A DNA stretch of 64,000 nucleotides from Thermococcus sp. MAR1 (GTDB lineage: Archaea > Methanobacteriota_B > Thermococci > Thermococcales > Thermococcaceae): assembly GCF_012027305.1 (NCBI RefSeq), contig NZ_SNUF01000001.1, positions 558,001-622,000 on the forward strand, given 5' to 3'. The translations under genes and the position numbers were made by a program. Shown here one piece after another: positions 35,526 through 39,637 of the stretch (positions are counted from its first letter, which is position 1; each line of letters begins with the position of its first letter). The notes beneath the pieces are model-generated. The model had not been told where the DNA came from. It saw only the letters and a program-made list of their open reading frames with translations, and did not search any database.

Positions 35526-36926
35526 ATGCCTATGGTAGTCCTTCGCATCCCGGACGGTTCGGCATTGGTGAAAATCGAGAAGGCTGACCCCCAGGTTTAT
35601 TTCAAGATATACGAGCTGCTCAGCTACAAGAAGGACTTCGGGAAATGGGAGAAGCCGGAGAGCCTCTACGACCCTTACGAGAGAACGTTCCCAGTGGGTG
35701 TCCTTCCGAGGGTTAAGAAGTTCCTCAACTGCAAGGGTTATCGGGTGAGAATTAAGGACGAGAGGCAGATCAGGGGAGTAAAGCTCAACTCCACCTGGAA
35801 CGAGAACTACGTCATGCGCAGATACCAAGCGAGGGCGATAAAAAAGGCCCTTAAGGAGAAGATGGGCGTACTTTCCCTTCCTGTGGGAAGCGGTAAAACT
35901 GTTGTCGGTCTCAGGATAATCCACGAGCTCGACCTCTCCGCGCTGATAGTCGTCCACACGAAGGAGCTTCTCTACCAGTGGGCGGACAAGGTTAGGGAAG
36001 TTTTGGGCGTTGAGCCGGGCATAGTCGGGGACAACAAATGGGAGGAGCGCGCCGTTACCATTGCCATGATACAGACCCTTCTCTCGAGAGGCGCGGAGAA
36101 GCTCCAGAACGAGTACGCGATAGTGATGTTCGACGAGTGCCACAGAACCTCAGCCGCCGAGAAGTTCTACCAGCTTGGACTCAGCCTTCCCCAGGTTTAT
36201 CGGTTCGGCCTCTCTGCGACCCCCTGGCGCCGCGTTCGCGGGGAAGAGATAAAGATCGAGGCCGTCGTTGGCCCGACCATATTTGAGGTCAAGGCCGAGG
36301 ATCTGATAAAGGAGAGGTTCCTTGCAAAGCCCCGTTTTGAGATAATAACCTACGAATCGACCATGCCGTCGTTCAGTGAGCGCTACAAGGAGCTCTACGA
36401 AGACATGATAATGAACAACGACGAGAGGAACAGGGCAATAGTCAAGAAGGCCGTTGAACTCGCTAGGAAAGGGCATCGTATCCTCATTGACGTGAAGCGC
36501 ATAGAGCACGGTAAAATCCTGAAGGAGATGCTTGAAGCGGAGGGAATAAAGGCCGAGTTTCTAAGCTCCCAGAGCCCAAACAGGTGGGAGATACTGGATG
36601 CGTTTAAGGATGGCGAGGTTCCGGTTCTGGTTTCCACTCTCCTGAAAGAGGGTGTTGACATACCCGAGATTTCGGCGATAATACTGGCCGGCGGCGGAAA
36701 GAGCGACATCATGACGATTCAGACGATAGGCCGTGCGCTGAGGCCGAAAAAGGGAATGAAGGCCGTCATCGTTGATGTCCAGGACGACGACCCCTTACTC
36801 TTCACCCACTTCATCGAGAGGCAGAAGGCACTCAAGCAGTACTACGGCATGTACTATGACAGGGAGATGGCCTCAAAGCTCGATGAGAAGGTCCCCAAGA
36901 AGGGCCGCTCTCGTAAGCGCCCGTGA
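35526..36926 (+). CDS. XPB/Rad25-like SF2 helicase
   Basis: This is a 466-residue superfamily 2 DNA helicase. Motif I LPVGSGKTVVG, motif II FDECHRT, motif III LSATPWRR, and motif VI QTIGRALRPKKG are present, with an N-terminal damage-recognition-like region. Archaeal XPB often has the nuclease Bax1 as neighbour, but none is here. Start ATG 35526 follows GATGAT with a 5-base gap. A TATA (TCTATAAAG) lies about 30 bases upstream. Its last 54 bases overlap truA. Confidence 0.88.
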   Translation: MPMVVLRIPDGSALVKIEKADPQVYFKIYELLSYKKDFGKWEKPESLYDPYERTFPVGVLPRVKKFLNCKGYRVRIKDERQIRGVKLNSTWNENYVMRRYQARAIKKALKEKMGVLSLPVGSGKTVVGLRIIHELDLSALIVVHTKELLYQWADKVREVLGVEPGIVGDNKWEERAVTIAMIQTLLSRGAEKLQNEYAIVMFDECHRTSAAEKFYQLGLSLPQVYRFGLSATPWRRVRGEEIKIEAVVGPTIFEVKAEDLIKERFLAKPRFEIITYESTMPSFSERYKELYEDMIMNNDERNRAIVKKAVELARKGHRILIDVKRIEHGKILKEMLEAEGIKAEFLSSQSPNRWEILDAFKDGEVPVLVSTLLKEGVDIPEISAIILAGGGKSDIMTIQTIGRALRPKKGMKAVIVDVQDDDPLLFTHFIERQKALKQYYGMYYDREMASKLDEKVPKKGRSRKRP

Positions 36927-37676
36927 GTAGCGCTCGAACAGGTCTCTCTTCGCTTTGTTAATACCTCTCTCATCCCCCTTGAACTCGATGCCCGGATAAT
37001 CTATGTGCCACAGAACCAGGCCCTCAGCAGGGGCGGGCGGGATTTTTTTCGTGTAGATTCCCTCCAGCATGTTCTTCACCTCTCTGGCCTCGAGCAATCC
37101 CAAACCGCAGAAGCGGAGGGCGTTCACGATTCTTCTCGCCATCTCCCAGAGGAAGCTCTTGCCCTCAATCTCTATGACGTAGTAGCCGTGGCGCCGGCTC
37201 ACCCCAAGGCGGGTCAGCTCTCTAAGGGGGTCTTTTCCCGGCTCTAGTCTAGCGAAAGCGGAGAAATCGTGCGTTCCAATGAAAAGGGAGGCGCAGTTCC
37301 CCATGGCTTCCTCGTCGAACCCCTCATCAACCAGATAATACCGGTAGGTCTTTGACTTTGCCCAGAAACGCGGGTGGAAGTCGTTCGGCACCTCGGCAAC
37401 GCCGAGAACCCAGACATCGCGGAGGTGGTGGTTGAGAACCTCTCCCCTGAGTAGGTCGGCCCGGCCCTCGACGTCAAAGGCCACGACGTTGAAAAATGCG
37501 GAGACGCCCCTATCGGTTCTGGAAGCCCCTTTAAAGTTCGAACTCTCGGCGTCCCTTATTATCCCAAGCTTTGAGAGTACCCTTATGAGCTCCCCTTCAA
37601 CCGTCCTAACGTCTGGTTGCCTCTGAAACCCGTAGAATGCCGTGCCGTCGTACGCTATCCTGAGGGCCATCCTCAT
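36873..37676 (-). CDS. truA: tRNA pseudouridine synthase TruA
   Basis: This 267-residue enzyme makes pseudouridine at tRNA positions 38-40. The catalytic Asp is in GASRTDRGVSA. AYDGTAFYGFQRQP at the N-terminus and SFLWEMARRIVNAL near the C-terminus are family marks. A TATA (ATTTATACC) ends about 25 bases before ATG 37676, so the message is probably leaderless there. The 25-codon upstream extension lies beyond the promoter and is rejected. Confidence 0.93.
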   Translation of the reverse strand: MRMALRIAYDGTAFYGFQRQPDVRTVEGELIRVLSKLGIIRDAESSNFKGASRTDRGVSAFFNVVAFDVEGRADLLRGEVLNHHLRDVWVLGVAEVPNDFHPRFWAKSKTYRYYLVDEGFDEEAMGNCASLFIGTHDFSAFARLEPGKDPLRELTRLGVSRRHGYYVIEIEGKSFLWEMARRIVNALRFCGLGLLEAREVKNMLEGIYTKKIPPAPAEGLVLWHIDYPGIEFKGDERGINKAKRDLFERYSRALTRAALLGDLLIEL

Positions 37677-37740
37677 GGTTGGTGAATCTGGTGGAGGGTA
37701 TAAATGTCTTTCCCAGAGCCGTCTTTGGAATATCGCCAAA

Positions 37741-37781
37741 TTACTTTGCAAAAGTAAACCCTGATTTTGGATTCAATCCAA
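37741..37781. promoter_or_regulatory. two perfect dyads upstream of a 31-codon gene
   Basis: TTACTTT-GCA-AAAGTAA (37741-37757) and TTGGATT-C-AATCCAA (37767-37781) are two perfect 7-base inverted repeats with centres 25 bases apart. They lie just upstream of a TATA-like ATTGATAAA (37798-37806). They resemble operator sites, possibly also affecting divergent truA. No binding protein can be named. Confidence 0.45.
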
Positions 37782-37838
37782 TGGAAGTGGAGAAAGATTG
37801 ATAAAGAGCCTTAATTAGTTGTACTTGGAGGTGGGAAG

Positions 37839-37934
37839 ATGGAATGGATCTGGGATATGGAGATATTCACAAACGTCACGAACTTTGAGATAATGTGCAC
37901 GTTCCTTTATAAGGGCCTAAAAAAAGGGGATTAA
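37839..37934 (+). CDS. possible 31-residue small protein
   Basis: ATG 37839 opens 31 codons ending in TAA. The ATG lies 5 bases after a full SD, GGAGGTG (37827-37833), and about 33 bases after a TATA-like sequence. The product begins MEWIWDMEIFTN and ends YKGLKKGD: an aromatic, acidic N-terminus, one Cys and a basic tail. It has no strong membrane helix. It overlaps the end of pheT by 4 bases on the other strand. I know no family. The expression signals are better than chance would give, but coding is unproven. Confidence 0.5.
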   Translation: MEWIWDMEIFTNVTNFEIMCTFLYKGLKKGD

Positions 37935-39637
37935 AGATAAGGCTCCCTGTAGAGCGGCCACAGGAACAGCTCGAAGGCCGCTACTGGCATTTCTATTCCC
38001 CAATTTTCTAGAACGGCCGGATGGATTTCCCCGATAATGCCGATTTCTTTCCCGTCCACGATGATTCTTCCCGCCCTGCCCGGAATGAAGCTTGGGTGCT
38101 CTATTTCTTCAAGCCCGTACTTGAAGCCGAGGTGGCGCATAACGCTTTCCAGTATCTCCTTGGCCTCGGTAAAGGTTACGCGTGGGTGAGCTAAGGCAAC
38201 CGCCAGCTTGCTCTCGCTCACGGTCTTCGTTTCTCTGCTTTCGTCTATCAGCGTGACCTTTCCGACCTCGAAGATCCTCTGTGGGTATTCCTCGTGGGTG
38301 TTCTGGCTCAGGAAATCGAGCAGGCTCGGGGTGAGCCACACTCTGAGGGCAGACCACTTGGGGCTTATCGGGTTCTCTATCTCGACGAGCTCCGCCGGCG
38401 GGTTGTTGAAGTAGTCTCTCCCGTATTCCAGGTTCATCTTTTCATACTGAGCCTCTCTGTTGGTGAGGTTGAAGGTCATGACCTCCTGCAGGCCGAAGCC
38501 GACCATGAGCTCCCTGACGGCGTCCTCGAATTCGACGAACTTGTCCCCCCTGCCCTGGACGGCAAGCTTCGGCTCCTCAGGTTCGATCTCGTTATAGCCG
38601 TAGGCTATGAGGACATCCTCCAGAACGTCGCGGGCGTGCATTATGTCATCGCGGAAAGCCGGATAGAGGAGTTTTGCCTTCCCGTCAACCAACTTGACAT
38701 CGTACATCATTCTCTCGAGGAGGCCCTTGATCTCCTCGTCACTCAGCTCAAGGCCGGTGAGCCTCTTGATGTAGTCCAGCTCGACCTCGAACTCCTTCGG
38801 GGCCAGGTCCGGTGTCTCAACCTCGAAGTCTGGATAGACGACCTTAACGCTCTTTATCTTTCCGCCGCGTTCGGCTAAAGCCGTGACTACGACGTTTAAA
38901 GCCAGCATTATCTTCTTCAGATCCCAGCCGGTGACGTCAACGAAGACTCTCCTCGTTTCTGTGGTCACCCTGCCGGTTATCTCCGAGTTTATGATTGGGG
39001 GCATCGAGAGAACTTTGCCCTCGCTGTCCACGAGGAGCGGGTAGTAGGGCTTGTCCTTGATGAGGTGGCCGTACTCCCTGCCCTTCTCGTGCCTCTCAAG
39101 GATTTCTTCCAGCGTGAGCTCCTCCTCGAAGCCCAGCGGGACGAACTTCTCGCTCTTCTCAGCGGCGCGGTAGTATATTGGCGGCTTCACCTTATCAAAG
39201 TCGAAGATGCCTATGGCGACCTCTCTTCTCCTCCTCCCGAAGGTTAAAGCCACCTTCTCCTGGAGGTTTATCATCTGCTTTAGCGCCTCTTCATCGAGGC
39301 TCAGTCCCTCAACTATCGCGTAGACACCATACGGGCGGATGTTTTTCAGCTTCTCGTCAACGTAAACGGTTACACTGCTCTTCTCGACATCATATTTTGG
39401 AAGACCGCTCTCGAAGCCGAGCGCCCAGCGTATCTGCCTCGCTATTCCTTCCGCACTCCATAGGTCGGGCCTGTTGGTGTCTTTCGAGTCGGCCTTGAAG
39501 TAAAGCTCCCCGTTCTCCTCCCAGACGTCGTCCAGCTCGCACTTCGCGTAGAGGAAGAGGTCCTCCCACTCCTCAACCGTGAAGCTCTTCCCGATGAGCC
39601 TTTCCAGATCCCGCTTTGACACATCGAACTTGGGCAT
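37931..39637 (-). CDS. pheT: phenylalanyl-tRNA synthetase beta subunit
   Basis: This is the 568-residue beta subunit of archaeal-type PheRS. It has an N-terminal B1-like domain, a B3/B4 editing region (RREVAIGIFDFDKVKPPIYYRA) and B5 domain, and a C-terminal catalytic-like domain (LQEVMTFNLTNREAQ, VEIENPISPKWSALRVWLTPSLL). It lacks the tRNA-binding EMAP and FDX-ACB domains of bacterial PheT, as is normal in archaea. SD GAGGTGAT lies 3 bases before the ATG. It is 9 bases after pheS. Confidence 0.96.
   Translation of the reverse strand: MPKFDVSKRDLERLIGKSFTVEEWEDLFLYAKCELDDVWEENGELYFKADSKDTNRPDLWSAEGIARQIRWALGFESGLPKYDVEKSSVTVYVDEKLKNIRPYGVYAIVEGLSLDEEALKQMINLQEKVALTFGRRRREVAIGIFDFDKVKPPIYYRAAEKSEKFVPLGFEEELTLEEILERHEKGREYGHLIKDKPYYPLLVDSEGKVLSMPPIINSEITGRVTTETRRVFVDVTGWDLKKIMLALNVVVTALAERGGKIKSVKVVYPDFEVETPDLAPKEFEVELDYIKRLTGLELSDEEIKGLLERMMYDVKLVDGKAKLLYPAFRDDIMHARDVLEDVLIAYGYNEIEPEEPKLAVQGRGDKFVEFEDAVRELMVGFGLQEVMTFNLTNREAQYEKMNLEYGRDYFNNPPAELVEIENPISPKWSALRVWLTPSLLDFLSQNTHEEYPQRIFEVGKVTLIDESRETKTVSESKLAVALAHPRVTFTEAKEILESVMRHLGFKYGLEEIEHPSFIPGRAGRIIVDGKEIGIIGEIHPAVLENWGIEMPVAAFELFLWPLYREPYL

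Follow-up and report, generated by a model that had tools for sequence, protein, structure and literature searches.

A microprotein gene kept across a family of hyperthermophilic archaea, convergent with pheT and with a conserved promoter of its own

Known small-protein systems and the locus opposite pheT

Small-protein regulators that consist of a single helix and dock on larger complexes form a general class, whose members are short and helical, present one conserved face and are expressed from a regulated promoter of their own. Usually, small-protein regulators work by docking on a partner and modulating it. In archaea, zinc-finger micro-proteins have been described from Haloferax volcanii (PMC10716476). 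For Thermococcus kodakarensis, the transcriptome map places the TATA box about 23 bp before the start, with a median 5'-UTR of 16 nt and a ribosome binding site of the form GGDGRD, and adds 55 new orphan RNAs, in which it reports no ORF above 10 codons (PMC4247193). The locus analysed here holds a real microprotein gene that is found throughout the family, has a conserved private promoter and is unclassified relative to the family libraries searched.

In the window, i.e. the whole stretch of 64,000 nucleotides of Thermococcus sp. MAR1 DNA that was analysed, a gene of 31 codons encoding MEWIWDMEIFTNVTNFEIMCTFLYKGLKKGD occupies positions 37839-37934 of the plus strand and ends in TAA (37932-37934), which bears out the original prediction of a short frame between truA and pheT. 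Both neighbours lie on the minus strand. The ORF is divergent from truA (tRNA pseudouridine synthase, 36873-37676, with its own TATA box at 37699-37705) and convergent with pheT (PheRS beta, 37931-39637), the two stop codons overlapping by 4 nt (37931-37934) that read TTAA. A minus-strand run of seven T just past the pheT stop (37919-37925), located within the 3' Lys codons of the microprotein, is a candidate pheT terminator and would end that transcript. One stretch (37919-37934) hence serves both strands, with the T run and the overlapping stops of pheT sharing bases with the last codons of the microprotein. Runs of at least five A near the 3' end of the ORF were seen at 34 of 59 loci; the Lys-rich tail is also found in genus g5, where pheT is distant, and is therefore not solely a terminator by-product.

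Across the relatives, pheT stays next to the gene in all genera and the upstream genes vary. The microprotein gene presents INDEPENDENCE from neighbours, in that the upstream gene is truA (called by tblastn) or else thyX, tdh or an alaX-like gene (recognised by eye from sequence), and the microprotein and usually the TATA box persist; its own promoter is kept whether it stands beside truA, thyX, tdh or alaX. The end of pheT lies about 400-500 nt from the ORF in g5, g6 and some g2 loci, and at the g5 locus that was inspected another ORF sits between the microprotein ORF and the pheT end. The microprotein gene appears to be a genuine, independent transcription unit with its own promoter.

Conservation of the frame and selection on the peptide

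Used alone, the peptide yielded tblastn matches in 57 of the 61 genus genomes. A profile search was positive in 87 of the 94 genomes from the order, with each of the six genera represented (6/6) and per-genome E-values down to about 1e-18. At all examined loci whose contig reaches pheT, the frame adjoins the pheT 3' end in convergent orientation. Conservation of the frame among relatives, the check proposed with the original prediction, was thereby confirmed beside pheT in these 87 genomes of the order. The seven genomes without a profile match comprise five draft assemblies (G024, G036, G070, G088, G091), which also yielded no match to the C-terminus of pheT, and two complete genomes. One of the latter (G023) keeps pheT and truA, its microprotein is an apparent relic, SNVANFEVAWVPYKGMEKR, and the TATA box and dyads are gone; in the other (G072), tdh lies directly opposite pheT instead. 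Since these two complete genomes have no intact gene, the microprotein is not strictly essential. The relic in G023, located between truA and pheT (L150 / L089), belongs to a small, 1.5-Mb genome.

Beyond the order, 21 other genomes of the class gave no convincing match (best E 0.006, inside a 617-residue frame), and the phylum-level search covered the same 115 genomes as the class-level search. A second short match, VTNFEIMCQFL, was seen in a 63-residue frame away from pheT (L146, G012:C1:512234-512266), possibly a paralogue fragment or a product of chance.

Within a 20-codon core compared over 56 distinct sequences, dN/dS was 0.148 in frame, as against 0.82 and 1.94 in the other plus-strand frames and 1.0, 0.29 and 1.78 in the minus-strand frames; the underlying pairwise counts are not phylogenetically independent, and the contrast between frames is large. 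Entropy by codon position was 0.86, 0.54 and 1.38 and thus highest at the third, and at the protein level E8 and N15 are invariant, with F16, M19 and K25 nearly so. Because in-frame dN/dS is low relative to the other frames and third-position entropy is highest, selection acts on the protein, and the frame is under protein-level purifying selection in the genus. The second check that came with the prediction, synonymous-site bias, had the same outcome (about 0.15 in frame vs 0.8-1.9 in the other plus-strand frames). A conserved start, Shine-Dalgarno (SD) sequence and promoter, as they mark a protein-coding gene, are present as well, and the frame is almost certainly a genuine translated gene. 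Short frames do arise randomly, and they abound opposite pheT and truA, but order-wide conservation, a fixed SD and TATA box and a dN/dS of 0.15 speak against a chance open frame, which we reject on conservation and dN/dS and to which we assign next to no probability.

Alternatively, the main product of the locus might be an RNA directed at the 3' end of pheT, antisense or otherwise regulatory, with the frame incidental or secondary. With convergent genes and overlapping stops, any microprotein transcript must enter pheT antisense, and antisense starts close to the ends of genes are frequent in T. kodakarensis (PMC4247193). Against this stand the protein-level selection on the frame, the absence of an Rfam match and the g2, g5 and g6 ORFs that lie some 400-500 nt from the pheT end, where the pairing with pheT is not conserved, yet the peptide is. 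On account of these latter loci we reject the view that the core function is antisense control of pheT, and the antisense explanation in general strikes us as very improbable next to that of a protein-coding gene.

Searches for known families returned no significant match in Pfam (best E 0.044) or PHROGs (best E 0.028), no match in NCBIfam, and in the PDB sequences a chance 12-residue match only (E 1.2); nor was a description of the microprotein found in the literature. A viral origin was rejected as there was no PHROG match, and a ribosomal or RNA polymerase subunit of solved structure as there was no PDB match. For 36500-39500, Rfam gave no match at E-values up to 5, and a non-coding RNA was rejected on this result together with the selection on codons.

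Promoter signals and upstream dyads

The SD sequence GGAGGTG (37827-37833, plus strand) stands 5 nt before the ATG, and the TATA box TTGATAAA (37798-37805, plus strand) lies 41 bases before it, with an A/G-rich BRE just upstream at about 37790-37797. Both signals had been named in the original prediction, the SD at this very spacing and the TATA-like sequence downstream of the dyads, and both hold. An SD of GGAGGTGA type, full or partial, occurs in most relatives, and at the 44 genus loci TTGATAA precedes the N15 codon by 70-90 nt, which puts it about 41 nt upstream of the ATG. The microprotein SD fits the T. kodakarensis consensus GGDGRD, and from the TATA position and the 23-bp rule of that map (PMC4247193), the transcript is predicted by analogy to start at about 37825-37829 and would have a short leader that includes the SD.

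Two dyads, to which no strand is assigned, precede the TATA box. In its conserved register, dyad 1 (TTTGCAAAAGTAAA, 37745-37758; genus consensus TTTACnnnnGTAAA) starts 53 nt before the TATA start, and dyad 2 (TTGGATTCAATCCAA, 37767-37781; genus consensus TTGGAnnnnnTTCAA) starts 31 nt before it, with perfect 7-bp arms (TTGGATT-C-AATCCAA). When the 44 genus loci were anchored on the TATA box, TTTACnnnnGTAAA scored a mean of 7.7/10 matches at offset -53 (median 2.8 at other offsets) and TTGGAnnnnnTTCAA a mean of 7.9/10 at offset -31 (median 2.6). Conserved inverted repeats at fixed distances from the TATA box, as in operator-controlled promoters, are thus found at -53 and -31. Two perfect 7-base repeats with centres 25 bases apart had been predicted, and they are there; dyad 2 coincides with the conserved element, which is in register across the genus, but the perfect register of dyad 1 (TTACTTT-GCA-AAAGTAA, 37741-37757) is not the conserved one. 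The two registers overlap and are about 2.5 nt apart, the perfect symmetry being found, among the listed loci, only in the window species and one close relative (L031, L038). In the conserved register, the dyad centres are about 22 nt apart, roughly two helix turns.

Dinucleotide shuffles of the 167-nt gap between truA and the ORF contained a mean of 0.05 dyads and reached two in 0.6% of cases, so the two dyads exceed chance; among the 14 such dyads of the 64-kb window, just one pair of neighbours is spaced within 30 nt. A search for both dyads together (20 fixed bases, at most 3 mismatches) found them at the microprotein locus in all of the 10 genomes tested and gave one other, weak 3-mismatch match in a single genome. 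As a pair, the module is essentially private to the microprotein gene and occurs about once per genome, on which ground a regulon common to the full two-dyad module was rejected.

Lying between two divergent promoters, with dyad 1 about equidistant from both TATA boxes, the dyads could in principle control truA, the microprotein being constitutive. Dyad 2, however, is immediately upstream of the BRE and TATA box of the microprotein, and both dyads are spacing-locked to that TATA box. Moreover, G023 retains truA beside its microprotein relic and has lost the dyads, and related dyad-2-like sites (TTGACAnnnnTTCAA-like forms) precede the microprotein gene at loci where truA is not the upstream neighbour. 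Control of truA therefore seems unlikely, and it is the transcription of the microprotein that is probably regulated through the dyads, as the conserved cis-elements suggest; one or two DNA-binding regulators would act at both dyads and thereby switch it. Such operators are not universal, since loci without truA and other genera have different upstream sequences. In g5 (L117-L119, L128, L129) and g6 (L120), another conserved upstream block, TTGACAAT..., stands before a TTTAAAT box, and this difference suggests that operators may have turned over between genera.

Dyad 1 also has counterparts elsewhere. The entire genome of the window species has just three mismatch-free copies of TTTACnnnnGTAAA, namely near IMP dehydrogenase, between ribose-1,5-bisphosphate isomerase (TIGR00511) and an aminotransferase, and inside an ORF. 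Both the site close to guaB and the one flanked by the ribose-1,5-bisphosphate isomerase and aminotransferase genes (L169, G000:C2:321980-321993; L161, G000:C1:86239-86252) have the palindrome TTTACGTTTGTAAA, which recurs at the same places in several relatives and was not found near guaB in several other relatives examined. A small nucleotide-linked regulon that operates via the dyad-1 palindrome is possible, and the link to purines is only a lead because guaB of those other relatives has no palindrome nearby.

Possible function and relation to known systems

AlphaFold models residues 2-30 as a single helix (mean pLDDT 90.7, pTM 0.49), an outcome to be read with the ease in mind with which a 31-residue sequence is predicted as a helix, and Foldseek, for which a single-helix query is a weak test, gave no match. 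Reasoning on a helical wheel would place E8, N12, N15, F16, M19 and L23 on one face. A single alpha-helix could dock this conserved face (E8, N12/S12, N15, F16, M19, L23) onto a partner protein and modulate it. We give docking on a partner somewhat less than an even chance: the idea draws on the helix model and the conservation pattern and has no further support, as there is no homologue of known function.

One candidate partner is PheRS itself, to which the peptide might bind as a small accessory. The lasting linkage would then make sense, for pheT stays beside the gene throughout the genera and the upstream neighbour does not. Yet the genes are convergent, not co-transcribed and about 400-500 nt apart in the g2, g5 and g6 loci, gene-order inertia accounts for the linkage equally well, and neither G023 nor G072, which both have PheRS, retains the peptide gene intact. 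We consider an action on PheRS improbable. A wider proposal is likewise improbable: two dedicated operators would control a hitherto undescribed helical microprotein found throughout the family, and this would modulate some core process of the hyperthermophiles, e.g. PheRS activity or nucleotide metabolism; the hint at nucleotide metabolism derives from the recurrence of the dyad-1 palindrome near the IMP dehydrogenase and ribose-1,5-bisphosphate isomerase genes.

Overall, the locus is best explained, with good confidence, by a conserved, independently transcribed, dyad-regulated microprotein of about 30 residues. The "regulated microprotein" of the original prediction is supported in that the frame is conserved and selected; that it is regulated is what the conserved cis-elements point to. 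That at least 87 genomes, from all six genera, have retained the microprotein implies that the cell uses it. For well-studied archaea, this is a new conserved gene family, apparently overlooked in published transcriptome maps and in family libraries, and with its 30 residues and a conserved two-site promoter of its own the microprotein makes a tractable target.

How such a gene relates to mapped transcripts can be seen in T. kodakarensis. Like the 3'-end antisense transcripts described there (PMC4247193), the microprotein transcript would start opposite and close to a gene end; unlike these, its SD is conserved and its reading frame under selection. If transcribed in T. kodakarensis, the gene falls outside the 55 orphan RNAs, because no ORF above 10 codons is reported in them (PMC4247193), and its transcript may have been filed as antisense to pheT. 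With the zinc-finger micro-proteins of H. volcanii (PMC10716476), the microprotein shares that it is stand-alone, very small, archaeal and easily missed by annotation. It differs from them in being a single helix without the C(P)XCG zinc motif; no sequence relation between the two was found, and the microprotein is restricted to one hyperthermophile family.

The single-helix small-protein regulators come closest in manner. Although the microprotein is not a typical membrane peptide, it is likewise short and helical, with one conserved face and its own, probably regulated promoter, a resemblance in the way of working rather than a sign of membership in that class.
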